From contig BSYQ01000001.1 in assembly GCA_030272585.1 (NCBI GenBank), positions 10,741,001 to 10,805,000 of the forward strand: a stretch of 64,000 nt of DNA, read 5' to 3'. Source of the DNA: Bryopsis sp. KO-2023 (taxonomy: Eukaryota > Chlorophyta > Ulvophyceae > Bryopsidales > Bryopsidaceae). Both the position numbers and the translations under genes were made by a program. A model generated the notes under the pieces. It saw only the letters and a list, made by a program, of their open reading frames with translations. It was not told where the DNA came from and did not search any database. Positions 3,301-64,000 of this stretch are shown in pieces (positions within the stretch are counted from its first letter, which is position 1; each line of letters opens with the position of its first letter).

Positions 3301-5214
3301 CTGCTGTGGTCAAGCGAGGCGGAGCTATTCTGGCGGAAGCACTGGTCATGACGTCACTCCCCCAGGAAACTGTGCAAACCATTCTGCCGAGTGAGCGCCC
3401 CAGTTCAGGATATCCTTTTCGACTTTTGCTTCTGTTTTGGAATGTATCACATAGGGGCTGGAAGTCTCAGACAGCTCATCCACTTTTTTTTTCACTTTTA
3501 TTTTTATTTTTATTTTTTACTTTTTTTTTTTGTATGAGCAATATGAGGATCGAGACAAATAATGCACTTTTTTTCAAGTCATGTGTTCTCTTTTGCTCTA
3601 GGTCTTGAGGTGCTTACGTCATTTTATGATAAGAATGTGCAAGTCGCTGCTGTGGAGGCGATGGAAAGCGTAGCTGTTCATTGCAGCTCACATCCTGAAG
3701 TCGTTGAGAAACTCCATGCCCAATTTGATAAATTAGTCACTGATGGATCCCATGAGGTAGCCACAAGCGAAAAAACACTGGAGAATCGACTTTCAGAAAA
3801 AGGGTGGATGCGGTGGAAAACGTTTATTTGTTTTTCTTGTTAGAGATTGCACTCTTGATTTACTCTGCCCCCCCCCCCCAAAAAAAAAAAAAAAAAAATT
3901 ACAGAAAAACAGAAAAAAGCAGGTAGAATTTACCACATGATTTCAACATGCTGTTCATTTGTGGAAGTTTATTTGATTTTCCAGTTTTTTCTTTTCTTTT
4001 TTTCAGGTTCAAATGGCGGTTATTCGGGCACTGTCAGGGGCTGTAAATATCTCTGCTGGAGTCCATGTGGAATTCTTGCTGAAGCAAGTCCTGTTGCTGT
4101 TGGCCCACATCCATCAGAAATCGTCGGCAGGAAAAAGCTATCTGCAACTGCAAGAAATGGCCCTCACCATATTTCATGCTTTGCGAACCCTGGACGGTTG
4201 CGAGGTCAGATTTTTTTCAAAGATTTTCTTGTTGCTATTTGAATTTGTTTATTTTTTTCTTCACCGTTTCAAGTGCAGCCCGTTCACGGAAATGTGTTAT
4301 AGGCTGACTCAGAGACAAACCACCGTATCATCACAATGTCCATATCTAATGTTGCTAATATCTGGCATAAAGCTGTAATGTTCTTTTTAAATACTGTACA
4401 GATAATATGATGTAATGTTTCTGGGGCCGTATTTGAATCGGTTTGGCTTTCTTACATGAGATGCACTTGCTCTGATCTCTTTTGCTGGGGACAGGTGTTC
4501 CTTCATAAAGCAATTCTGATCTGTATTTGTTCCTTTGGCTTTTTTTGCGTTTTAGAAAGAAAACAACTGTTGAATAGTCCCTGCACTCAAACCCTCTGAC
4601 TTTCTTTGCTCCTTTTTTTTGCAATTGTTTCGGTTGCTTTTCTCAAAATATGCGACGAAAAAAAAAACAGATTGCAGATCACAGCACCCGACTGCACCTG
4701 GTGGCAGCAATGGAATCTTTGAAGAGAGAATCTCAGCTGCTGGACCCTACTCAAAGGCAACTGATTTCTGCGATGCTGAAAGATTTGTCTGAGAGAACCC
4801 CTGCACTGCAAGTCCCGCAGATGGCCCAACGACCAATGACAGCACGGCATGTGCAAGGGAGTGATGGGGGGAGCGACAGCAAACTATCTTACCAGGTTTG
4901 TTACATATTTATGTATTTTGTTTTCCTCCTTGCTGAAAAAAAGCAACTTTTGCATATTTAGGTAACTGTTTCACTCCTCGCTAAAACAAGCAAGCCGTTG
5001 AATATGTCTGGCACACTTTCCTACGACACTGCATATTTAAGCATATATAAAAAAAAAAGGCGTGAATCCATGCATTGAACAGGGAGGAAATGGTCATCGG
5101 AGAGCAACTTCTCTCGACACCATGTCTGCCTCAGCAGCACACAGGCGAAGTGACAGCGAGTCATCCAAAAACTCAGGTCGACCAGGGGATCCCTCAACAA
5201 ATCCTTTTACATAG
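323..5214 (+). CDS. RELCH: RELCH-like LisH/HEAT-repeat protein, C-terminal part (5' end outside window)
   Basis: About twelve exons, recognised by similarity to human RELCH (KIAA1468), which links Rab11 recycling endosomes to lipid transfer; plants have related LisH/HEAT proteins. Exons read: 323-546, 688-942, 1064-1187, one uncertain near 1430-1560, 1850-2197, 2414-2537, 2671-2951, 3210-3390, 3602-3756, 4007-4204, 4671-4895 and 5083-5214 (stop TAG). Phases join cleanly from 1850 onward. The first exon carries YPERRTLVAE followed by a helical repeat, closely matching the RELCH segment YPERRLLVAE. The last HEAT segment (LLDPTQRQLISAMLKDL) matches the RELCH C-terminal helix. The exon at 1850-2197 adds a Pro/Glu-rich linker that I do not know from the animal protein. 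The tail after the last HEAT helix is Ser-rich. The N-terminal LisH and coiled-coil part would lie upstream of the window. Family assignment is firm; the fourth exon is not. Confidence 0.82.
3120..3166 (+). repeat. tRNA-like T-arm inside a RELCH intron
   Basis: A perfect T-arm (stem CCAGG/CCTGG around TTCGAAT, with the B-box motif GGTTCGAATCC) is followed by TGGGAGCC, which looks like a tRNA 3' acceptor strand. No matching 5' acceptor, D-arm or anticodon arm is visible upstream, where a T-run lies instead. It is therefore not a complete tRNA gene. A truncated tRNA or a tRNA-derived SINE is the likely source. Confidence 0.5.
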
Positions 5215-6180
5215 CTTCCAACCTGGTGTCAGCAACACTCAATAGTCAAACATTAAGCTGCAAGAAACATAGGTGTGCTGGTAGGGCGCGGCTGTTTGAA
5301 CAGAGAAAAGCAGCAAAAAAATGCAGGTCGAATTGCGTATGATTTTTCTGTTTTCCTAGGCGAGGTTGGCAAAGGATTTATCATTCTTTTCTTTCTTTTT
5401 TTCTTTTTTTTTTTTTTTTGGGGGGGGGGGATGGGTTTGGGGGGAATTTTGAGAAAAATCATGGTAAAGCCAGGTCATTATGCTGCTTGAGTTTCTGGCT
5501 ATTGTAAAAAGAAAATGACTGATGGTTTTTTCGTTCCTCCTCTTGGTGGAAACCGTTGGAGCTTCTTGTATGGTTTTTGCCTCGGTGGAATTGGAGTTTA
5601 TGAATGACTAATATTGGTATCAAAAATTCATTGTGCTTGTTAAAAAAAAAAAAAGATTAAGATTGAGATTGAGATTCCAAACGGCTTTCCCAATTTTATG
5701 ATTTTTCCTGAGGGAATCCGTAGATTTGGTTGCTGTTGTACATTTGATGTCCCATTGTTTTTTGTAAGATTCTTCTTTCTTGTTTTAACAACGGGGAAAG
5801 TCCTATTTGTTTTCTACTTTCTTGAAGGAAAATTCCTTTTTGTTTTCGACTCTATTGAATCAGTGGTGGTGGTGGTGGTGGTACGAAATTTGCACATCAC
5901 TGGGAGTGCATGTCTTGATTTGCGCATTTTCTGGACACTCCTCTTCAAATTTTGTTCTGTTCGTAATTCTTCTCAACATACTGATTCAGAGGTGGGGAGA
6001 TCAGCGGATGGAATTGAGGCCTGATGATACCATCGTTTTTTGCCAGCAGCAAGTCCACAATTTTCAAGTTGCTTTCTTGCAGGAAGCAGTGGGGATTTCT
6101 GCGAACAACCGCAGACCACCCAAACAACACAGAGAGAAGACGAGAGTGGAATCATCCCTCTCCTACTCATAATTTATGAG
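5215..6180. other. intergenic region, no gene recognised
   Basis: AT-rich spacer between RELCH and NCA1. It holds a T-run followed by a G-tract near 5400-5430, a short GATT/GAGATT tandem near 5655-5680, and a GGT microsatellite at about 5863-5881. Open frames at 5698-6172 have no recognisable similarity or splice logic. Confidence 0.5.
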
Positions 6181-28895: not shown

Positions 28896-30756
28896 TTAAC
28901 CATAATTCCTGACACAAAATCATAGATGAGTCAGCAAACAGCAAGCAATGCACTCCAGCAAGAAAAAGAACACAGATACAATTAAGCGCACACACTCACT
29001 TCGATGGCACTGGCTCCGCAGGACCGAATTTCCTGGAGGGGTGAAGAATGTCACGAGTATCATCATCCCCATCGTCAGAGTCGTCATCCTCATTTTTCAC
29101 AGGGAGGCCGTTTGAGAAAAGTGGCCTGCGGGTGTCGTCATCCCCATCATCTGAGTCATCATCCTCATTCTTCAGGGGCCGACTGGTGTCATCATCCCCA
29201 TCATCTGAGTCATCATCCTCATTTTTCACGGGCGAGAGATTCCCAAAGAGAGGCATTCTGGTGTCATCATCTCCATCATCTGAGTCATCATCCTCATTCT
29301 TCAGGGGCCGACTGGTGTCATCATCCCCATCATCTGAGTCGTCATCCTCATTTTTCACAGGGAGGCCGTTTGAGAACAAGGGCCTGCGGGTATCATCATC
29401 GCCATCATCGGAGTCATCATCCTCGTTCTTAACAGGTGTCCCAAAGAGAGGCATTCTGGTGTCGTCATCTCCATCATCAGAGTCGTCATCCTCATTCTTG
29501 ACAGGGAGGCCATTCGAGAACAAGGGCATGCTGGTGTCATCATCCCCATCATCGGAGTCATCATCCTCATTCTTCATGGGCGAGGCATTCCCAAAGAGAG
29601 GCCTTCCAGTGTCATCATCTGAGTCATCATCCTCATTCTTCAGGGGCCGACTGGTGTCATCATCCCCATCATCTGAGTCATCATCCTCATTTTTCAGGGG
29701 CCTGCTGGTGTCATCATCCCCATCATCGGAGTCATCATCCTCATTTTTCACGGGGAGGCCGTTTGAGAAAAGTGGCCTGCGGGTGTCATCATCTCCATCA
29801 TCGGAGTCATCATCCCCATTCTTGGTGGGTGAGGCATTCCTAAAGAGAGGCCTTCTGGTGTCATCATCGTCCCCTTCACCCTCTGAGTCATCATCCCCGT
29901 TATCCATGGGGATGCCGTTAGAGAAAAGAGGCCTGCGGATGTCATCATCGTCGCCTTCACCTTCAGAATCGTCGTCTTCGTTCTTGGCTGGGAGGACACC
30001 AGCCAACCCAACCCACCTCTGCTGTCCCTTGTAGGGCCCTGAAAGAAAAAGATTGAACATGAAATGCTGTAATCCCCCTTGTCCCCACAAAAGCGCGCTG
30101 TTCCTCTCAGTCTCCAAGCGGTGGAATGTGCCCCTTTCCCGTGCAGAGGCCTGAAGCAGATCACCTTTCTAAGAACTACCGCGCGAAGCATATGCATACA
30201 CAATCACACCGCCCCAATAGAAACCAAATGTATTTGAAAACATAGTTTTGTCTCGCAGCCCATACGCGAGCCGACTGCAGCATCCATAATGCCTACTTCG
30301 ATCTCAGTGATCTATGCAATTGATAAGAAGAACAAAACCAAGAGGGGCGAAACCGCCTTACCTGACGAAGCGACCAGCTGTTGCAGGGACTCCTCTGTGA
30401 ATCCGGCGACTCCAGCAACTGCGCGAAAACAAAGCTGCACAATCAGAAGCAGCAAACGATAGCTACATTCGGGATTCCCAGTACCCACATGCAAAAGCAA
30501 CGAAAACTCCCCCCCAAAGAAACCGTTGGCTCTACGACCGAAGAACGCAGGAGGTCAGCCGCAAAAGTCACTTCTGTATTCCAACTGCTCGATTGTCGCA
30601 AGATCCGTCCAGACGAAAAAAAATTGGTCCTCGACAAGTTGTAGATCTACAACTCTACCCAACTCCACCCAGACGAGCAGTGCAACGAACGATCGAAAGC
30701 TCACCACATGCCGAGAGGAAAATTGCTGCGAGAATGGACACAATGGAGCCGCGCAT
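28896..30756 (-). CDS. secreted Asp-rich tandem-repeat protein A
   Basis: Four exons on the minus strand: 30756-30705 (52 bases), 30418-30362, 30038-29000 and 28908-28896 (TAA). They total 1161 bases and 386 residues. Exon 1 is a signal peptide (MRGSIVSILAAIFLSACG). Exon 2 gives a short leader (GFTEESLQQLVASS). Exon 3 is a run of acidic repeats: a core RRPLFSNGLPVKNE followed by DDDSDDGDDD, with a short form SRPLKNEDDDSDDGDDDT interspersed. The end reads RKFGP and then a very short tail. Asp makes up a large share of the mature chain, so it should bind Ca2+ or basic partners; that is inference. Protein B at 60947-62713 has the same exon plan and core. I know no named family for it. Confidence 0.82.
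29048..29990 (-). repeat. tandem repeat array within Asp-rich gene A
   Basis: About 14 imperfect units of two lengths (short about 54 bases, long about 75-81 bases) code for (S/R)RPL cores separated by DDDSDDGDDD. Neighbouring units are nearly identical at the DNA level, as expected under unequal crossover. The two units closest to the N-terminus carry a different spacer (DDDSEGEGDDDD). Confidence 0.85.
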
Positions 30757-50565: not shown

Positions 50566-53500
50566 TCAGTTCTTCAGCTCCATGGTCACCCGCGATCGCA
50601 CGGTGCTGGAAAGCTCCCCCATCAGCGAATCCTCGTCAAAAGCCTTGGCCCTCATCCATTTCTCCTCAAAATGCCCAATAACCTGCTGTTGGGTATCGAC
50701 AGGCACCCCCCAGTCCCCCATCAAATCCAACACCCAGTTCCGCTTGGAGGCCTTCATTTTTCGGAACTCCTCCAGCTCTGCAGTGTCCCTCAGCAACTCG
50801 CTGATGGAGGACTCAATCAGAATGAAGAAATAGATGTTGAAAGTCATGATCACCATGGCGACCAGCATCTCCTCCCATGTGGTCGGCTGAGGATCACCAT
50901 AGCCCACAGTCGTCAGTGTGTCAGAGCACCAGTAGATGGAATCGAGGTATTGGAGGCCGATGCTGGCTTCCAAGGCAGGGGCACGGTCAATATCACGATT
51001 GGATAACCAACTGTCATCTGGTCTGGTTTTTCGCCACACCGCCACAAAGAAATAGAAGCAGCCCAAAACGTTCAGAGTCATGGCCGTCATGTAGACCGTC
51101 AGCATGAAGTAGAACGTCGAATTCGGAGTGTAATCCACGATCACGGGGAGGGCATTGTTACCAGCAAAGCATGTCGAGGCGAGGTCCATCAGGAATAACA
51201 CAAACCTAGGGACGAATCTCAACAGCAGCAGCCACGTGTAGGTATGTTTGGCTCCGTTCCCATCGGCGCCACCCAGAACAGCAAAATACATGAAAAATGG
51301 AAGGATCGAGAGGATGTCAATGATGAAGGTACCACGCATGATGTAATTCTCAAGGACGGGCTTGAACCCCATCACAATGACCTTTTGGTGGTGGTTCTGG
51401 GCGACGAATCCAGTGGCCATGTTCATGAACATGTTCAAAATGAACACAATGCCAGCATACCACTCAAACATGTGGACCCACCACTCCAACTCGACCGACC
51501 TCCCACCGTTGTTGAGACTGATGTAGTCTCTTCCCAAGCCAAAACAGAACACAACCGGGAGGAGGAAGCTTGTGTAGGTGGCATCCATCACCATCATTTT
51601 TGCTGACCAGAAAATCGCAAAAGGATTATCGGGGCTGAGGGGCACCTCCATGCCAGATCTCTTTGCAACCAAATTGGCTCTGTGGTACTCTTCCTCCTTG
51701 GAGGTACCATAGTCCTCGGCTCCAGTGAACAAGGTCCCCCACTTCGCCGAACTCACATCATGATAACGAGCAACGTTACGAAGACTGTATTGTGAATTCA
51801 TCCTAACTTTCATTGTCTTTGGTGCCTTGGCAGCCCCTTTGTCACCCCCCTCAACTCGGGTGTCCAAGAAACCTCCATTCGTCCTGGCCCAGGCTGTCCG
51901 CATCTGATGTTCTTGCCCATCGACCAACTCAATCAACAAGGTGTTGTCATCTCGACAGAGCTCCTCCAGAGCGGACATCTCTAGATGCCACAGGTAGCAT
52001 GCTGTCTTGGCACGGACAGTGACTGGATGAGGCTCCCTGGTCTGCACCAAAGCATAGTCTCCAATGGTGGCATACCCGCTCACGCGTCCTATCTCCTCGC
52101 TTCCCCTCAAAGCAACGAGAGTACCACCCTCAAGTAGATAGATTCCATTTGGAAGGTCATCCATCTCGAACAGATCGTGCCCACTGGCGATTGTCATGGG
52201 AGTCAGACATCCAGCGATCATCTCTTTGCGCATTCTGTCCATGTTCTTGAACAAATCCAGGTGATTCATCACATCCTGGGTTACATACTGCAGAACCGAG
52301 GACCGAATGCCATCGGGCATATCCAACAGGATTTCCACATCCAGATTGTTGGCTGACGAGAGCTTCTCCGAATAGTAAGACCGGACAACCTTTTTCAGAT
52401 CTTGCGTGAATCCTCTGGCATCCATCCATTGAACGACTTGTTTCATTCGAGTGCGGAGGGCATCCATTTTTCGGACATCATCTCTCAAGCTCTTAATGAC
52501 AGTGGATGTGGAAGCAAAAATTACCGAGAACAAGAGCACAGCGACGAACATGACGAACATGGATGCGAGGTCTTCTTGCCATGTGTTGGGCTGGCAGGAA
52601 AACAAAAGTCATTCAGTGTTATTGTGGATAGACCAGGACTTACATACCACAGATTTTGATACATACGGGGATGCACTTAGTTCAGGAAATGTGTACTGGG
52701 GTCATCTGCCGACAGTCGGGGCAGTAATGAGCAGAATCGTACATCGAAATATTAAGAGCAGTGGTGGTTTGAATGATGTACATACCCAAGGATCTCCAAA
52801 ACCAACTGTCGTGAGGGTATCCATTGCCCAGTACACACTGTGCAGGTACCGCATGATTCTCTGATTGTCGAAGAGCAGTTCGCCATCAGTTGTTGGCATG
52901 ATTCTCATTGCAATCCAACTCCTATCCCCGAGCTGTCCACCTTCAGACGTCTCTGCCTTTCCAAGGATGTACAACGCACACCCACACAAGTTTGAGAAGA
53001 ACATGAACACATAGAAAACGTTGAACATCCAGAGCAACGTGGGTGCCTTCAAGATGCGGCCAAATCCATCGGGTGCCCTGAGCATCCAGCCCAGCTGCTT
53101 GGTACTGACGGAGAAGGAAACATTCCAGATCAGCCGCAAGACGCGGAACACACGGAAGAGCCTCAGCATGCGAAGAATGGAGAGCGTCAATTGGGCATTT
53201 TCGTCTGGACCAGGGACAAACCACAGCAAAAATTAGGAGTTCTTCAGCAAAGAAAGGAAAAATCCAGTGAGCAACCCACACAGCTCGAATGATGATCAAT
53301 GTCTATTTATGTCTGCCATGAGCCATGTTTTTTGTGCATGAGCTGTACACAAACACGCAAGGAAGGGTTTGAAAATCCACCAACTATGTCACTTACTCCC
53401 GCCTTCCGCCCGAGCAATGATCTCATAGAAGAAAGGCAACACGGACAGGACATCTGTCAAAACTCCACCATGGAAAATATAATGCACGAGAACATCTTTC

Positions 53501-56500
53501 CGCCTCATCACAACAGTGCTCCTGTGGTCATACTGGGCAATGTACCCAGTCGTCATGTTCAGAATCATGCTCAGAATAAAAATGACCCCAGCGACGACCT
53601 CCAGACCAAAAGCCCAATCTGGCAAGAGATCATCCTTTTCGTCCAGAACAAAAGCAACCAGGGCAGGCATGACGAAGGCGGTATAGACAGCATCGAAAGC
53701 AAACATGAACCAGGACGAGTACAGGGAGACGAGGCTGTGCGGGTTGATGATGAGCGGGCTCATTCTCTCTGATTCTGGCACGCCCATGAGACGGAACCAT
53801 TCAGCAGGACTGACATCAAAGCTCCTGGGCTGGTAAGCCATCGGAGGCAGGGGATCACTGAAGTGCGCATTGCTCAGGGTGCCCATCGACTTCTCTGACG
53901 TAACCTTCCTGAGAGAGCTCGTCCTCCTCTTCAGTGGCGAACCTAACCCATTGTCAGCAAATCTCAGCTTGGGGGTATATCACTAACAGCATTTGCTTAT
54001 AGCACTCAATGGGGTCGCTGGTGGTGTTCTGGTCCATCAAGAGTTACCTTGGACGTTCGCAGATCCTGCATGCATTCCATTGAGGATTGATTGCAGAGTT
54101 TCTTTGGTGCCAGGATGCTTTTTCTCAACAGTGTCGAGAGACACAGCATCCAAAAGCCACAGAAAGCAAGAGGATTCGCTCTCGACTGTGAACTCACGTC
54201 GTGGTTGACTGTCCTCCCCATGAGCAGATATGACTTCCTCACCAATCGTTGATGGTCCCTGCATCTTGGCTCGATTCACACCATTCTCTGTGGCCACCAC
54301 ACTTCCAAACTCCAAGATATAGAGCGATTGAGCTGGATCCCCTTCGCCGTAGAGTTTGGCCTCTTGAGAACACAGTGATGGTTTCAACATGGACGACACT
54401 GACAGAAGGACATCTGGAGTGAAACACTCAAAAAGCTCCATCTTCTTATACACAGGCTCCAGCATGCAATGGACCACCTCTCCCCTGACGTTGGTGGGAA
54501 GTCCTTCCAAGATTTCGGCCTCATCGAAGTCGACAATTCTACTCCACATCTCCGTGTAAAAACTCTGGACGACGCTCTGCAGGTGCCTAGGGAGTTTCCT
54601 GGTCAAAAAGAAAGACTCCATGGCCTTCATCTTCAGTCGATTGGTGTCTGCTCTCTCCACGACATTCCTGGAGCTCTTGAACAGGTCCAAAGTGGCTCCA
54701 ATGATGAATCCAAAGTAGTAAACCTGGAAAACCATCACAATCAAGGCGGCGATCTCTTCGTTCCATGTAACTGGATGGGGCTCCCCATTTCCGTTGGTCA
54801 GCAACACATCGATGCCGTAGAAAATGCAAGCCACCCAGTGTTCCCATTCAGAAGGCCCATGGTCAATATCTCCTCCCAGCAAAGTGTAACAGTTGAGACA
54901 ATTGGCACCATCGTCATTTCCGACTGCTCCTTGCACAGCTCGGGGCAAATGAATTCTAAGAGCTACCCAACTCTCATCCAGCCCCCTCCATCGGGCAACG
55001 ACATACATCAAAGCTCCGATCCAGTTGATCACTCCAAAGAGAGTGTAGATCACATATCCGAAATAAACGAAAGTTGGCTGGACCCAGTCGAAGAAAGGAT
55101 ACGTCGGGATGCTCCAGTGGTTGATAACCGAGTTCAAGTAGATCTCCTTCAAAATCCAGTAAACTCGACCATATCTAGCGTGCAGCCTCAAAATGTTCAG
55201 AATCTGATCAGCTTGGTCACCTGTGGCACCGATCAAGAAGTCACTCACGCATTCTGAGAACAATCGGAATGTCAGAGTGAAATGTCAAACTGTGCATATC
55301 CAAATAAAAAAAAAACAGATATAGCAGACACCAAGAGATATTTCACTTTTCCCCTGAAACAAAAAAATCACAATCATCCGACACAGGAAACTGCCTACTA
55401 TGTCTTTAGCCATGGGTTGAAATTAATACGAGAAATGTGATTACCTGGGACGTCGCGTACAACACAGATTTCATAAACGAATGGAATGACGGAAACCAAA
55501 TCCACCAGGAATCCACCCTGTGTCAAGTAGTACTTGAACACTTTGGAAGGATCTTTGACCACGAGGGCCTTGTTGCTGTGAGAAACCACAAATCCAGTGA
55601 TGAAGCCAGAAACCATGTCCAGAAAGTAGACAACACCAGCAATCCACAGCAAGGCACGCCCCCAACCATGGCTGTCCTTGATGTTTGTGTAATCCACCGT
55701 TGTCTGCTCAGAACCTTCTGGAATGATGGACAGAGGGTACGGCTCTTTGGGGTCGTTGTCAATGACGAATTGAATGATTTGAGGGAGGACACAGACAGCG
55801 AAGACAAGGTCAAATATTGCCATGAACCAGGTCCAGTAGACAGACAGCTTGGAAGTTGGGTTGATGAGGACTCCAGAATTGCCCTTCATGGAACACACAC
55901 ACACACAAACAACTGGATTAAGGAAGGTGCACCTACCGACAACACAGTACCTAGCCTGAGACAGGGCACAGAAGTAAGTTGGATACATATCTGTTTTTTT
56001 TTCTATTATAGAATGCAAGCATAGTGGTTTTCTGAAAACGGCAGAAGGCCCCAGGTGGAACTCTCGAATGCTCACATTCTTCTGTGCATCTTCGACATAT
56101 TGGCCCCATTCTTCAGCATTGACTCGGAGAAGCTTCTGCGACGGCTGGAACAGACCTAGCTTGGTTGGGTCATACATACCTTCCACCACTTGCTTGAAGG
56201 TCAGCACTGCATCAGCAAAAACGAAATCCAATTCATGAAAAAAAAAAAAAAAACCTCCAGATTATACCATATCCAACAAAGTTCAGAAGCCTTCTTTTTT
56301 CTGTATGAGAAATGCTGGCATTGCGTTGAGAGACATGCAACATTCAAAAAAACGAACACACCTGGGGATGATGTTCTTTGCTTCAGAACGTCTGTTGCAA
56401 ACTCGTTGAGAGATCCATCATTGAGATTGACCTTGGCAGCTTTTTTCTTATTCTCCACACCTGGGCTGACTCCAAACTCTGTTGCCAAGGTATCACTCTC

Positions 56501-59500
56501 TTTCATCATGAAACCCCATGCACGAGAAGCTAAATCTGCCTCAGGCAAATCAGAAACCCTACAACACACCAGCCATCTCAGTTGTTGGAGGGTGGATGCT
56601 AGAATTTGCCCTTCATCGCATAGATCCATACCATCCAGAAGCATAACTTACTTGACCTCCCAAACTTCGCATTTTTCCATCGCGATTGGAGTAGTAAGCC
56701 TCCTGCTGAAAGCTGGGTGAGTAGGTGCAAAAAGAGCTGAAAGACCAACCACCTGGGAGCGGCCCACATCATGCACACCACCGGAAGAACTGGTGATTCT
56801 CGCATGGCCAGATTCGACGACAAAAAACGAATCTGCCACGCTGCCCTGCAAAAAAAAATCGAAAATGTTGCTCATGATATGCATGGAGGACTGGGTTAAA
56901 GGGGCAATCGGAATAATGATGCTGAGCCAGTTGTATGGTTCAGGGAAACTGTCAGCCTACCTCGATAAACAAAGAATCCCCAGGGGCAATCTTTTTTGGC
57001 TTCATCTTGGAAGCGATGGCTGCCCGGATGTCACTGCTCAGCTCTTTTAAGAAAGCAGCATCCCTCACAACAGGCTCACCCTTGATAGTAAGGATATCAT
57101 CGCGTATGTCCTCTGGAATCTCAGACAAAAACTCCGCAGCATCCCAACCACCCTCTTTTGACCACAATCCCAGGTAGAAGAGCTGAATTTACAGTATGGG
57201 TGGGGAAACCAAGCAACAGTTCTCAGTCAGACATAGTGCAAAGTAAGGTAGGTCATCATGCACTGATTGCATTACATCCATTTGAGTTGCATGGCATCCA
57301 ACTCAAATGTCAAACAACAGTTGGAACAGCACTTGTCAGCGAAAACGACCGGCTATCCTGTAAAAAGCATCTAGAAACGATATCACACCTTGACTTTCAT
57401 TCGGAGCCTGTGGTTCAGCTTTCTGCTATCCATCCAAGCTGCCAAATTGCCCATTTTCCCTCTGAACTCAGCAGGAGTGGTGGACTCATGAACTTGACTC
57501 AGAACATTTCCAAAGAGGCCCGCAGTCAAAGAGAAAAAGAAGATGTACAAATACTCAATGAACAGAACTATGACTTGCTCCACCCAACGGATGGGGGCAG
57601 GATTTCCGAATCCAAGGGTGGTCCAGGTGTCCATAGCCCAGAACAAACTGTCCAAGTACTTTCTCCACTGTGTAGCTTCGAGCAATGGAGTGTCAATGTG
57701 GTAGCCATCAGCAACAGCTCCATCACGCCCAGCAACCCAACTGTTTTCTTCACCCTCCCATCTGGCGACCGTGAAAAGACCACAGGCCATGATGTTCATG
57801 CAGCCCAGAATGGTGTGCATCAGAATTCCACACAGGAGAGCCATGTTTGGAATGCGATCCCAGTTGGATGCGTTGGGGTAGTGCCCCGACAGTGACTTCA
57901 TGTAGATCCAAATGCTGAATCGAATCACATACAGGAGACGGAGCAGCCTCAAAATGCACAGGACTTGATCTGCTTGATCCCCTGTTTCCACACACAACAC
58001 CCATTCGGTTTATCATCCAAAAAAGACATACAGTCGGGTCACCCAATACCGCCGCTTTGAATAGCGCCGTACTCGATATAACGCCGGTTTGAAACTGAGA
58101 AAATCTTGGCACACCTTCAATGTGATCCTAGATGTGGCTGAGAGACTGTAGAACTAGGACAGAAGTGTGAAACCATAGGAAAACAACTTTAAAAACACCA
58201 AAAATCTTCCATTAGACCAGTTGTACAACTGTCGTGACCAAAATCGTCTGATTTCGGACACGCAAAATCATTGTTCCAGTCATTGCATCAAAAGAGGACT
58301 TGAATCGATGTCTTTCGATTTGAAAATTTGGTAGCAATTTTTTCAAGTGTTTTCCAACACTCCTTCAAATTTTTGTGATTTTTGGGTTATTTGGGGTGTG
58401 TTTGTTAGGGGCCTGGATTTGTCCAATCTTTTGCTGTTGGTTGGACAAATCTAGCCTCATCTTTCATCCACTTCCTCAATTACATTGCACTCAAAAACAT
58501 GCCCACGGGGTCGTGGTTCTCTCAAATAAATTAGCGCACTTCAAAAATACCCAGCACGGCGGCAACAGACACGAATTACAGGCGAAAAATCGACGATTCA
58601 GACGATTTTTCGCCTGAATTAAGTCACGATTCGTCGATTACTCACAATTTACGCAGGCAATCGAAACAAAACTTTGATGGTGGCTGTGCAATGTTTTTAA
58701 CATACTACAGTTAAAATTTCGAGGCGTTTTAGAAAGTGGTTGCCTAAAAATTTGGGATAAAAAAATACTCTCTTATTGGCAACTTTTTGGTCACGAGAGT
58801 TGTACTGTGAGATATCCCGAGAACTACACTACAACTGGTCATTACACCACAGAAATGTAAGCTCACTTTCTTGAAAAGAACACAACAAAGAACCCTACAT
58901 CTTCCAACGTCATTTGCGTTTTCTTCTGGAAACTCTTCTTCAGAATCGCTTGCTGTAAGTTCAAACGTTTTCGCTTTGGAGGCATGGCTACGGCTGCGAA
59001 TTTGCTTGCCAGCGCCAAATGATTTCGATGTGACTGCGGCTGCGAATTTGCTTGCCAGCGATTTCATTCGATTAGACTTTTGTGTCATTTTCGACCTATA
59101 ATGTGAATACCGCCGTACTCGATATACCGCCGGTTTTCTTGAGCTGACACACACCGGCGGTATTGCGTGACCCGACTGTAGTCGGCCAGTGCCAGCAGCT
59201 GTGAACGCATCATTGGTTGCATCTTCAGGGAAGATGTTGGGTACAGTAGCTCACCGATTGTGTCGGAGGTGATGGCAATCTCGTAGATGAATGCCAAAAC
59301 GGATATGAAATCGACAATGAAGGACCCTCCCGCCAGGGGATTCAAATACCGCTTCATGATATACTGTCGATCCATGACCACCGACTCTTTCCCAGGACCA
59401 GCAACAACAACCCCTGAGTTCAGTTTGAAGGCGATGTCGACAAGGTATATGGCACCAGCAAGCCAATTCCAAGCTCTGGCCCACCCTGCACCTTCACCCC

Positions 59501-60336
59501 CCATGAGCTTGATTTCCCTGATTTCATTTTCACTTCCTTCGATTGTGATGTCCTTGGTGGAATTATTGCAAACGAACCCGATCATGACGGGGAGGATGAA
59601 TGGGAGGTAGATGAAATCAAAAATGAGGACCGAGTACGACCACACGAGTGCAATGAGGCTGTGTGGGTGGAACATCCCCTTGGACTACAAGCAGCCAAAG
59701 AAAAAGTTAATCAACCTTGCAAAAATAATGAATTTGAGACCTGAATTTCAGTCTGGGAAGGAAGTTGCTAGGTCAGACTGGGCTGAGACAAAGGGAGGCT
59801 GATTTGGGTTTCGTTATGAATGTAAATAAGGACACTAGGTCAAGGGATTCGGGAGGTTGTTGGGAAAAGTCCGTGTTCGGAGGGGTGTCATTCCCTGTAA
59901 ACTTGCGCTTCGACGAAAAGATATTTGTTGACGTCAGCTGAAAAGACCGTAATACATGGCGGCTCCACCGAATTTATTACGAAATATATCTCCGCCGCCC
60001 TGTTCGCTGCGGGTGTTTTTTTCTCGGCCACCACACAAACGTAAACAGTCCCGATCGCAGATCTAATCCTGTGCGGCGAAGAGAGTCGCGGCAAAGGAAA
60101 CAAAGGAAATGCGGATAGACCTTAAGCGGACGTGATGTCGAATTCGAATTCGCCATCCACGAAAGGAAAATAAATTCGGGGCCAGTCGAAGCGAAAAGAT
60201 GAAACTCAGGACCAACCTGGGGACGCTTGCCTTCCTTCCGTTTTAGTCCTTCATAGACTTCCGCAGAAACTTCTTCACGCTGATTCGCTGCGTATGGCTG
60301 TGTCCTTTCGAGGGTTGCACTCCCGAGCAGCCCCAT
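50566..60336 (-). CDS. CNGK: four-repeat cyclic-nucleotide-gated K+ channel (CNGK-like), about 2173 residues
   Basis: Twelve exons on the minus strand: 60336-60217, 59684-59255, 57981-57389, 57182-56961, 56845-56652, 56558-56362, 56206-56076, 55883-55445, 55253-54048, 53942-53397, 53204-52786 and 52590-50566 (TGA). They total 6522 bases, exactly 2174 codons. Four S1-S6 units lie in one chain. Pore filters are TTLGFGNP (residue about 304), LLTNGNGEP (about 926), TTVGFGDP (about 1491) and TTVGYGDP (about 2059). S4 is Arg-rich in repeat 3 (LRMLRLFRVFRVLRL) and weaker in the others. Repeats 1-3 are each followed by a C-linker and a cyclic-nucleotide-binding fold; repeat 4 ends in a C-linker. The best cAMP/cGMP pocket is in repeat 2 (IGEEVIS...RREF). 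The architecture is that of animal sperm CNGK, whose single-chain form sets flagellar membrane voltage. Orthology is not proven. Confidence 0.9.
58031..59178. mobile_element. TA-flanked DNA transposon (non-autonomous, mariner/pogo-like) in a channel intron
   Basis: The left end begins CAGTCGGGTCACCCAATACC. The right end is its inverse (GGTATTGCGTGACCCGACTG), matching over the first 24 bases with one mismatch. The element is 1148 bases and is flanked by TA on both sides (58029-58030 and 59179-59180), the target duplication of Tc1/mariner/pogo elements. A second shared motif (GTACTCGATATA) lies inside each end. An inner minus-strand frame at 58744-59154 has a basic, Ser-rich part (RMKSLASKFAAAVTSKSFG) that may be a transposase remnant. 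No catalytic DDE core is visible. It sits wholly in the intron between repeat 1 S3 and S4. Confidence 0.8.
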
Positions 60337-60946: not shown

Positions 60947-62713
60947 ATGCGCCCCGCCATCGTTTCCCTTGTCGCTACCATGTTCCTGGCAGCATTGGGT
61001 GAGCTACTGTTATGGAGTTGCACAATCGGTTGCTTGCTTGTAAACTTGTTGTCCACCGTTGTTGCCTGACACACGGGTATTCATACCAGCTGTCGGTGAC
61101 TAGCTCTCGGTTCCCAGACGAAGGCGTTGCCACGTTTTCTCGGTCCTGCTTAGGAACCTGCTTTGCTTTCCTAGAACGGAACGGATGTTCCTTTATTGCA
61201 CCTAACTATGTGTCGCGGTTCGCTGATCTAGTCGCCGACGCCTATGTCCCTGAAGAACGTGTTCTGCTGCAGAAGGGGCTGACCAACTCACAGGGTAAGG
61301 TCGTTCAAAAAGTTGCGGCGTACAGTACGTGTCGGGGCGTTTGGAGGGCCAGTTTCTATTTGTACTTGTTTTAAGAAACGAACTTTTCTCCTGGAGGTTT
61401 CATTTTCTGGTGCACTCTTTCTTTACTCTGTCGGTCACGATCGGAGTTTTCGTTGCCAGGCCACTTGAAGGGTGACAACAAGTTTATCTATTCCGATTCT
61501 GACCATAAGGGTAGCAATGATAGCGGTGACGATGACGGTGGTGATGATGGGGATGATGACGCAACCGTCAGGCCCCTGATGTCCAATGGTCTTGGAGATG
61601 GGGATGATGGGGATGATGATGCCACCGCCAGGCCCCTGATGACCAATGGTGTTGGGGATGGGGATGATGATGGTGGTGATGATGGGGATGATGATGCCAC
61701 CGCCAGGCCCCTGATGTCCAATGGTGTTGGAGATGGGGATGATGATGGTGGTGATGACGGGGATGATGATGCCACCGCCAGGCCCCTGATGACCAATGGT
61801 GTTGGGGATGGGGATGATGATGGTGGTGATGATGGTGGTGATGATGGGGATGATGATGCCACCACGAGGCCCCTGATGTCCAATGGTGTTGGAGATGGGG
61901 ATGATGATGGTGGTGATGATGGGGATGATGATGCCACCACCAGGCCCCTGATGACCAATGGTGTTGGGGATGGGGATGATGATGGTGGTGATGATGGGGA
62001 TGATGATGCCACCGCCAGGCCCCTGATGTCCAATGGTGTTGGAGATGGGGATGATGATGGTGGTGATGACGGGGATGATGATGCCACCGCCAGGCCCCTG
62101 ATGACCAATGGTGTTGGGGATGGGGATGATGATGGTGGTGATGATGGGGATGATGATGCCACAACGAGGCCCCTGATGTCCAATGGTGTTGGAGATGGGG
62201 ATGATGATGGTGGTGATGATGGGGATGATGATGCCACCACCAGGCCCCTGATGACCAATGGTGTTGGGGATGGGGATGATGATGGTGGTGATGATGAAGA
62301 TGATGATGCCACCACGAGGCCCCTGATGTCCAATGGTGTTGGAGATGGGGATGATGATGGTGGTGATGACGGGGATGATGATGCCACCACGAGGCCCCTG
62401 ATGTCCAATGGTGTTGGAGATGGGGATGATGGGGATGATGATGCCACCACCAGGCCCCTGATGTCCAATGGTCTTGGAGATGGGGATGATGATGATGATG
62501 ATGGCGGTGATGATGGGGATGATGATGACGGTGCTGATGATGGCGATGATGATGATGATGCATCTCTTTTCAAGCACTTCAGGAGATTTGGACCATTATT
62601 CAGAGGTATCTATCGTTTGTTCGTTATGTGTGGCAATTTGATACCGTTGCGTTGGTTGCTGTCTCATCAGTCCATTTGTTTTTCTCGCAGGTGCATTTTT
62701 CCCAAAGTACTGA
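60947..62713 (+). CDS. secreted Asp-rich tandem-repeat protein B
   Basis: Four exons: 60947-60998 (52 bases), 61232-61294, 61460-62605 and 62691-62713 (TGA). They total 1284 bases and 427 residues. Exon 1 is a signal peptide (MRPAIVSLVATMFLAALG) of the same length as in protein A and splices in the same phase. Exon 2 gives VADAYVPEERVLLQKGL. Exon 3 holds about twelve units with the core ARPLMTNGVGDG or TRPLMSNGVGDG followed by DDDGGDDGDDD. The end is FRRFGP (RKFGP in A) and then a short tail ending in FPKY. The mature chain is extremely acidic and probably Ca2+-binding and extracellular; both are inference. An alternative frame after 62691 would add 40 residues, but it breaks the splice phase. 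Confidence 0.82.
61560..62500 (+). repeat. 75-base tandem repeat array with higher-order structure in Asp-rich gene B
   Basis: Units of 25 codons alternate between LMSNG and LMTNG and between ATA and ATT codons before RPL. The order Ala-S, Ala-T, Thr-S, Thr-T occurs twice in a row. A four-unit block of about 300 bases has therefore been duplicated; one extra GGDD makes the first block 12 bases longer. A private variant (GATGACGGGG) recurs at the same place in both blocks. Confidence 0.85.
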
Positions 62714-64000
62714 ACATATGGTTTGATGATGTTGACATTTGCGGAGAAAGAGACGACTGTGGTTGGGTGCCAAAGAGCTGTGGAACTGGACCTCGATACA
62801 AAAATTCTTCCTTCAATTTTCCATAGATTTTGTTTTTTGTAAGTGCTGTTTTCTATTTCTTGTATCACAATTCTAAGAAACGTAAGTGGTGTTGCACAGT
62901 ATCTGTGAATTGCTGTGATTTCAGCCTCAGTAAGTTTCAGCTGTGCAGTTGGGGAAAGTTTGTTTTGCTTTTATTCCATTTTGTTGCCTTGTCGGAGGGA
63001 TGAAGCAGTAGCTAGGACTGAAATACATCTTTTTTGAATTGGACCATTGCATTGGATTCACTTTTGCTTGTATGATATTGTTGCAGACTTTGTATTGACA
63101 AGAGACAAGTCATGATGGACAGGAAGTTTAGGTTCATTGTAAACGAATGATGTTTCTTATAGTACCAATTTTGACAGTCCAATTTGCTGGATCAAGATTG
63201 CTGTGTATTCGATTGGTGATGTAAGATTTGCTGCAGCTTTATTTGAAAATTTTGCAAAAGAGTTTCAAAATGTGACAGCCAGGAAATGTGCTATTCTCCT
63301 TCACCTTGCTCTTTGAATGCACTCAAAATCATATTCCAACTTCTCTCTTCATCATTCAAACTGTATTTCAAGGTCCAGGAACAGCAGAAATAAAAACTCA
63401 ACTCAAATCAAAATTGGAGTTGCAAACCGCAATGCATTTTTGAAGATATTTTCAAAAAAAGTACACCTCATGCTTTTTTTTCGATCCAAATTCGGTTGAA
63501 GATACCTTGGGAGATCTGCAGCAGATTTGTAATTCTCCTTGGCAATCTCCACATCCCAGCCAGGGATTTTTCTCTGATGGCAGGCAATTGCTGTGGCCCC
63601 TTTGGTTTTCATCCTGGAGTGATGTGGGGGCAATTGGCAATTAATTGTGCAAGGATATATTGGGCACCTGGTTCTACTTGGATGCACAGGCTCTGCCAGG
63701 TACCCTGTCTGACTGGAAGGTGTTGCAACAGGTAAAATGCCCCCCAAAAATCGTCTCACGACAAAAAGACACAAAATCCTCCATCCTCCATTTATAAAAA
63801 GAAAAAGGTGATCATTTACCTATCATACCTCGTACAACACAACTCCAGATTCTCCATGCATGGATTTGTCAGCCTGGGACGACATCATTCATATCGTGAT
63901 CCCCTGTGTGTCATTTTCATTTCCTTGCACTCATGCATATCAACAAAAACATCTTCCGCCGTCTCTTATCATTTAACGAACATCTCTCTCTCTGGGGCTG
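62714..64000. other. 3' flank of Asp-rich gene B, no gene recognised
   Basis: Mostly AT-rich. A minus-strand open stretch at about 63700-63480 (containing IPGWDVEIAKENYKSAADL) looks weakly coding and might be the end of a gene that starts beyond the window. I cannot name a family or confirm its splice sites. Confidence 0.35.

Follow-up and report, generated by a model that had tools for sequence, protein, structure and literature searches.

A four-repeat channel gene with cyclic-nucleotide-binding domains in the green alga Bryopsis sp. KO-2023, probably of separate origin from animal CNGK

When the 12 exons of a channel gene on the minus strand (60336-50566) were spliced in the 64,000-nucleotide stretch of Bryopsis sp. 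KO-2023 DNA analyzed here (the window, C1:10741001-10805000, from a 91-Mb genome in 28 contigs), a single open reading frame of 2,173 amino acids (aa) with one stop at its end was obtained. All intron borders are GT-AG and the phases are consistent. The predicted protein contains four repeats (R1 to R4), each with transmembrane segments S1-S6, a pore and a C-linker, and three of them carry a cyclic-nucleotide-binding domain (CNBD). A first-pass annotation made from the window alone had proposed twelve in-phase exons encoding about 2173 residues in a green-lineage genome; exons and frame were borne out, and the organism belongs to Viridiplantae, Chlorophyta, Ulvophyceae, Bryopsidales. Contamination was ruled out, as the 11.4-Mb contig has light-harvesting genes flanking the window on both sides. 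Across the genome, that family gave 107 exon-level matches, consistent with a green alga.

The deposited entry for the gene, BSKO_02260 ("hypothetical protein"; P0001), has 2,119 aa and 99% identity to the spliced product. P0001 begins at the first methionine of exon 2 and leaves out exon 1, which is included in the deposited paralogue (P0002). In both deposited proteins the exon 9 acceptor is of the 55220 type instead of 55253, with 11 residues fewer at the exon 8/9 junction. The model preferred here uses acceptor 55220 and retains exon 1, so that the length is corrected to 2,162 aa. The features of the gene, in window coordinates, are as follows.

60217-60336, minus: exon 1; N-terminal 40 aa with the pre-S1 motif EVSAEVYEGL, 75% identical in the paralogue
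59255-59684, minus: exon 2; R1 S1-S3, its final codon in phase 1 ahead of S4
57389-57981, minus: exon 3; R1 S4-S6 and the start of the C-linker, ending at the C-linker intron common to the one-repeat gene L017
57602-57619, minus: R1 selectivity filter TLGFGN (TVGFGN in the paralogue)
56362-57182, minus: exons 4-6 with their introns; R1 C-linker and CNBD1 (Arg retained, Glu replaced by Leu); exon 4 57182-56961, exon 5 56845-56652, exon 6 56558-56362
56076-56206, minus: exon 7; linker to R2, with RVNAEEW, which falls outside the pre-S1 motif pattern used
55445-55883, minus: exon 8; R2 S1-S3
54048-55220, minus: exon 9; R2 S4-S6, C-linker and CNBD2, acceptor 55220 favored over 55253
54781-54798, minus: degenerate R2 filter TNGNGE, identical in the paralogue
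54051-54399 (approximate bounds), minus: CNBD2; the sole CNBD whose phosphate-binding cassette has Glu as well as Arg
53397-53942, minus: exon 10; R2-R3 linker with the motif FDVSPAEWFRL, and R3 S1-S3
52786-53204, minus: exon 11; R3 S4 (five Arg), S5 and pore
52792-52809, minus: R3 filter TVGFGD
50566-52590, minus: exon 12; R3 S6, C-linker, CNBD3 and the entire R4 in one open exon, stop TGA
51954-52299 (approximate bounds), minus: CNBD3; Asp/His where Glu/Arg are expected
50569-51645, minus: R4 S1-S6 and C-linker, without a CNBD
50893-50910, minus: R4 filter TVGYGD

A second copy, BSKO_01394 (P0002), was found on the same contig, 4 Mb from the window gene (C1:6714434-6722936). All 12 exons were matched (tblastn pieces with 65-93% aa identity), every splice site is intact and the frame encodes 2,166 aa. 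Except in R1, its filters are those of the window gene, and it also lacks a fourth CNBD, R4 ending after the C-linker in both copies. Over 2,162 codons, nonsynonymous divergence (dN) was 0.059 and synonymous divergence (dS) 0.48, with a dN/dS of 0.123. For the S1-S6 parts of R1, R2, R3 and R4, dN/dS was 0.123, 0.088, 0.085 and 0.109, respectively, and for the CNBD-plus-linker parts of R1, R2 and R3 it was 0.226, 0.166 and 0.090, respectively; residues 1-43 were weakly constrained (0.63). These values show that the four-repeat form is under selection over its whole length, least in the first 43 residues, with purifying selection on each of the repeats. In addition, two fragments on contig C5 (L011 and L012) match the spliced exon 11/12 junction with the intron gone (77-79% identity over approximately 480 bases), which supports that junction; they look like processed copies of the four-repeat gene. 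The fragments (L011, approximately 4178-4763; L012, approximately 3845-4430) lie approximately 96 kb apart on opposite strands and consist of decayed, intronless R3 pore and CNBD pieces.

Four Ion_trans stretches were found by Pfam in each of the two copies, whereas the cNMP-binding family at E≤0.001 gave two stretches in the deposited window protein and three in the paralogue, so that the third CNBD of the window copy is the weakest call by Pfam alone. All three CNBDs were located by aligned sequence, and the four S1-S6 units and three CNBD folds of the first-pass annotation thus stand. With S1-S6, pore, C-linker and CNBD, the predicted protein is a member of the CNBD-channel superfamily, homologous to HCN, CNG and KCNH channels. 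The filters of the window copy read TLGFGN, TNGNGE, TVGFGD and TVGYGD from R1 to R4, and S4 carries four, four, five and two basic residues, respectively. At the two phosphate-binding positions CNBD1 has Leu and Arg, CNBD2 Glu and Arg, and CNBD3 Asp and His; in the CNGK-type CNBDs aligned for comparison (16 from four proteins, less two that were too short) Arg was present in 14/14 and Glu in 13/14.

Single repeats each resembled a different one-repeat channel best. Among solved structures, the best matches were GORK for part of R1 (9e-10), CNGA2 for part of R2 (4.5e-14), hERG for R3 (3e-22) and HCN1 for R4 (7e-15); part of R2 also resembled CNGC15b, and R4 resembled KAT3. In contrast to the Bryopsis protein, plant CNGC, SKOR/GORK and AKT/KAT and animal HCN and KCNH channels are one-repeat tetramers, and no Bryopsis repeat falls clearly within any of these families. 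The repeats are 24-29% identical to each other, and the pre-S1 motif occurs in three of the four in both copies, compared to 6 of 348 repeats among 87 further four-pore proteins. An AlphaFold2 model of exon 9 (mean predicted local distance difference test score, pLDDT, 64), poor elsewhere and trusted for the CNBD only, displayed the C-linker and the CNBD2 beta-roll at a pLDDT mostly of 77-88, with 54-69 over residues 321-340, the phosphate-binding cassette. Its top Foldseek match was CNGA1/B1 at a low TM-score (query-normalized 0.33-0.41 in the matches listed). The exon 12 model (mean pLDDT 57) was too poor and was not used.

Two one-repeat channels were found in the same genome. L10 (on L010; C16:848565-850352) is a one-exon gene encoding 595 aa, and L17 (on L017; approximately C1:6560641-6564631, 5' end approximate) was modelled with ten exons; they are 40% identical to each other. 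In the L017 model, the introns at 5278 and 7526 have apparent GC donors, not GT. Of the 30 matches listed for L10, the two Bryopsis four-repeat proteins had best-domain scores of 212 and 209 bits, and none of the remaining 28 exceeded 92.6. L10 and L17 also resemble the repeats in a similar pre-S1 stretch and a C-x-x-W end of the CNBD, and differ in having one repeat (presumably with four subunits per channel), the canonical TVGYGD filter and a CNBD of their own. A phase-0 C-linker intron at one alignment column is common to R1 and L17. Just ahead of S4, a phase-1 intron at one alignment column is present in R1, R2 and R3 and absent from R4 and L17. This pattern fits the duplication of an intron-bearing repeat with R4 as the first to split, a branching that received support of 88/15 in a first IQ-TREE sampling and 96/82 in a second.

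Besides the two Bryopsis genes, a first homologue search recovered only a Phytophthora four-pore protein, a fish HCN and a EukProt one-repeat channel, and a search with the R3 pore region found nothing beyond the two Bryopsis genes among 68 candidates. Both searches need shared 5-residue words and therefore say little about absence elsewhere. A synthetic query was then built from sea urchin pore motifs taken from published mutagenesis primers (PMC4749565, section 14); it gave 265 matches among 1,260 candidates, of which the 120 listed were used, and is biased to K+-type pores and thus no census. CNGK-type proteins were obtained from echinoderms, hemichordates, cnidarians, sponges, tunicates, fishes and others, and four-pore proteins from Triparma, a diatom, Chrysophaeum, Aureococcus and oomycetes, taxon names being those deposited. 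Two records were assigned by their names: the prefix of P0031, Nk52, we take to be ichthyosporean, and P0019 presumably belongs to a choanoflagellate transcriptome. By a pore hidden Markov model of our own, 89 of 125 proteins had four pores, 26 three, eight two and two one; some of the 89 are doubtful, P0100 having only 1,100 aa and P0053, P0067 and P0087 a partial first match. Among the stramenopile and other protist records, those predicted to be four-pore CNBD channels are P0060, P0074, P0083, P0078, P0093, P0096, P0003, P0103, P0104, P0088 and P0102.

For the trees, tandem proteins were picked by hand: 25 of the 125 for FastTree by no formal rule (23 and the two Bryopsis copies, with one-repeat references), and eight besides Bryopsis in each IQ-TREE run. 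In the hERG row a short segment is missing where two aligned pieces meet, and the L18 row is two exon pieces joined end to end. In the FastTree analysis (106 rows), the Bryopsis repeats grouped with L10 and L17 at a support of 99, and the CNGK repeats, from animals and near relatives, grouped at 100. In the IQ-TREE analysis (LG+C20, 46 rows), the eight Bryopsis repeats with L10 and L17 received 100/99, the CNGK repeats, which were separate, 100/98, and the eight repeats as an inner clade with L10 and L17 outside 95/87. The second sampling (46 rows) gave 100/99, 100/99 and 95/84, respectively, and paired Triparma P0060 and P0102 repeat by repeat. P0088 ('Rmarinus') R1-R3 were unresolved near the Bryopsis group in FastTree and were not joined to it in the second IQ-TREE sampling.

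Approximately unbiased (AU) tests rejected a clade of Bryopsis and CNGK repeats without L10 and L17 (log-likelihood difference 92, p = 7e-8). They also rejected the pairing of each Bryopsis repeat with its CNGK counterpart (differences of 116, 114, 137 and 95 for R1, R2, R3 and R4, respectively) and the grouping of Bryopsis repeats with the stramenopile proteins P0060 and P0074 (109). The clade with local one-repeat channels and the rejection of the CNGK pairing indicate that the gene is not a CNGK by descent. R1 with R3 and R2 with R4 were not rejected (p = 0.21 and 0.20, respectively); the shared pre-S4 intron groups R1 to R3. The first-pass annotation had left two possibilities, that CNGK predates animals and extends beyond them or that such a channel arose again, and it is the latter that these results favor. 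It had also named recent copying of a local one-repeat channel as an outcome that would count against it. A local one-repeat lineage is indeed indicated, and recent duplication of one repeat was ruled out, the identity among the repeats being far too low; by that identity the predicted four-repeat channel is old.

In the cited passages, CNGK (also tetraKCNG; sea urchin, Ciona, zebrafish, Salpingoeca; PMC4749565, PMC8835908, PMC7576140) is a four-repeat, K+-selective channel with a CNBD in each repeat, known in animals and a choanoflagellate (PMC4749565, PMC7576140); it forms one clade, with R1 nearest R3 and R2 nearest R4 (PMC7576140), and the sea urchin channel is gated via CNBD3 (PMC4749565). 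A current gated by cGMP or pH and a location in sperm also characterize CNGK. The statement in the first-pass annotation that CNGK is known from animals was too narrow, given the choanoflagellate CNGK and the stramenopile four-pore records. The Bryopsis protein resembles CNGK in being one polypeptide of four six-transmembrane repeats, each with a C-linker, in having several CNBDs and in the K-channel-like filters of most repeats. It differs in the separate descent of its repeats, in the R2 filter TNGNGE, compared to G(Y/F)G in each CNGK repeat, and in lacking CNBD4 and having both ligand residues in CNBD2 only. Among the CNGKs fetched, the filters were often STGYG/STGYG/SVGYG/STGYG, and the CNGK-like P0057 and P0071 also deviate in the filter of one repeat. 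The stramenopile four-pore CNBD proteins (P0060 and P0083 of Triparma, P0074 of a diatom, P0003, P0103 and P0104 of oomycetes) are predicted proteins that share the four-in-one design and differ in descent for P0060 and P0074, the two tested. Two-repeat CNBD forms of stramenopile and protist groups, as described in part of PMC7576140, likewise hold subunits in one chain and are set apart, by description, by their two repeats and other lineages. The cited passages of PMC7576140, PMC4749565, PMC6259924 and PMC8835908 describe the four-repeat CNBD fusion only in the CNGK of animals and choanoflagellates. A literature search, which did not take in the Bryopsis genome paper, found no report of a four-repeat CNBD channel of green algae.

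These findings make it probable that the gene encodes a pseudo-tetrameric single-chain CNBD channel of green-algal origin, most likely formed when a one-repeat CNBD channel was duplicated internally, with its likeness to CNGK due to convergence. Several points weigh against this. The gene is known here from sequence alone, Bryopsis was the sole green alga in the trees, its further channel loci (L019-L023) were left out, and many branches are very long. The AU test did not reject the one-repeat channels with R3 (p = 0.14) or R4 (p = 0.13), and gave p values of 0.0495 with R1 and 0.0545 with R2. When L10 and L17 were removed, Bryopsis and CNGK repeats as sister clades were not rejected (p = 0.085). 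This last placement, together with the alike architecture and order and the existence of four-pore CNBD proteins beyond animals, speaks for a true CNGK, a four-repeat gene already present before green algae and animals diverged and retained here. Such retention is nonetheless very improbable, since all four repeat-by-repeat groupings were rejected, that of R3 even without the one-repeat channels, and since it requires homogenization of repeats that are now just 24-29% identical; moreover, repeat orthology does emerge from the same trees for most holozoan repeats and for P0060/P0102. Sister clades would still require separate internal duplications, and the independence of the apparent duplications from those of CNGK is well supported. 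The same independence would hold if the four-repeat gene were the older form in the green line and L10 and L17 derived from one of its repeats, as the AU values for R3 and R4, the retrocopy-like single open exon of L10 and the intronless R3 fragments on C5 would allow. We consider that order unlikely, because bootstrap sets L10 and L17 outside all repeats in both samplings and because eight of the nine introns modelled in L17 are at positions absent from the repeats, a mismatch that also counts against descent of the repeats from a one-repeat gene. Overall, a one-repeat form likely preceded the four-repeat form.

Two further explanations concern the gene product. The open exons could come from more than one gene or transcript, given a gene model drawn from genomic sequence and a weakly constrained exon 1. 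This is scarcely credible when CNBD3 of R3 and the whole of R4 share one open exon, 11/11 junctions are in phase in both copies, both deposited models cover all four repeats and the two C5 fragments match a spliced junction minus its intron. The degenerate R2 filter, the missing CNBD4 and the loss of ligand residues in CNBD1 and CNBD3 would also suit a relic that does not conduct, or that serves in regulation only, after decay of its R2 pore and CNBD4. That is decidedly unlikely, as the frame is unbroken, the odd R2 filter is identical in both copies and R2 S1-S6 is among the most constrained parts.

Outside the gene product, intron 2 contains one further feature.

58029-59180, no strand assigned: DNA transposon of 1,152 bp with 31-nt terminal inverted repeats ending in TA

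It is absent from the short intron 2 of the paralogue. Among 40 scored of 68 candidates, at least nine full-length places in the genome, including this one, were found at 94-100% identity (two others round to 100%), so that the element was recently mobile. Its inner stretch (approximately 58215-58805) has many more copies alone and looks like a nested smaller element. Elsewhere in the window, the open frames 61375-62826 (plus strand) and 28999-30168 (minus strand) contain Asp-rich tandem repeats with units of 60-75 bp and 54-144 bp, respectively. Both have a motif like DDD..RPL(M/F)SNG and are probably one repeat-protein family.

In the favored reading of a single-chain green-algal channel, one chain would fold to form a single pore with four dissimilar filters (GFGN, GNGE, GFGD and GYGD). 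With three K+-type filters and one TNGNGE, the filter ring would not be fourfold. Without a K+-type filter in R2, the pore would probably conduct cations and select for K+ less strongly than CNGK does. The R3 S4, with five Arg, would be the main voltage sensor, and cyclic nucleotide binding, most plausibly at CNBD2, would shift gating. The class III cyclase family gave ten matches above the family cut-off at approximately eight separate places in the genome. Bryopsis is a siphonous seaweed whose gametes bear flagella, so that the flagellate alga imagined in the first-pass annotation does not describe the thallus. The channel may act in gamete swimming or in electrical control of the giant cell.

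Fusion of four repeats was the step that enabled Nav and Cav channels. We tentatively suggest, with somewhat less than even confidence, that fusion of CNBD subunits is recurrent, that the Bryopsis fusion is its own, apart from holozoan CNGK and the stramenopile forms, and that its broken symmetry (one repeat minus the K+ filter, another minus the CNBD, and a single nucleotide-reading site) yielded a mixed-cation cyclic-nucleotide channel in a plant lineage. A CNGK label, with its sperm-flagellum role, would misname the gene by descent. An independent green-algal case, with one-repeat relatives and shared introns in the same genome, would let one ask what the benefit of fusion is, as tied subunits can diverge from one another in filter, voltage sensor and ligand site.

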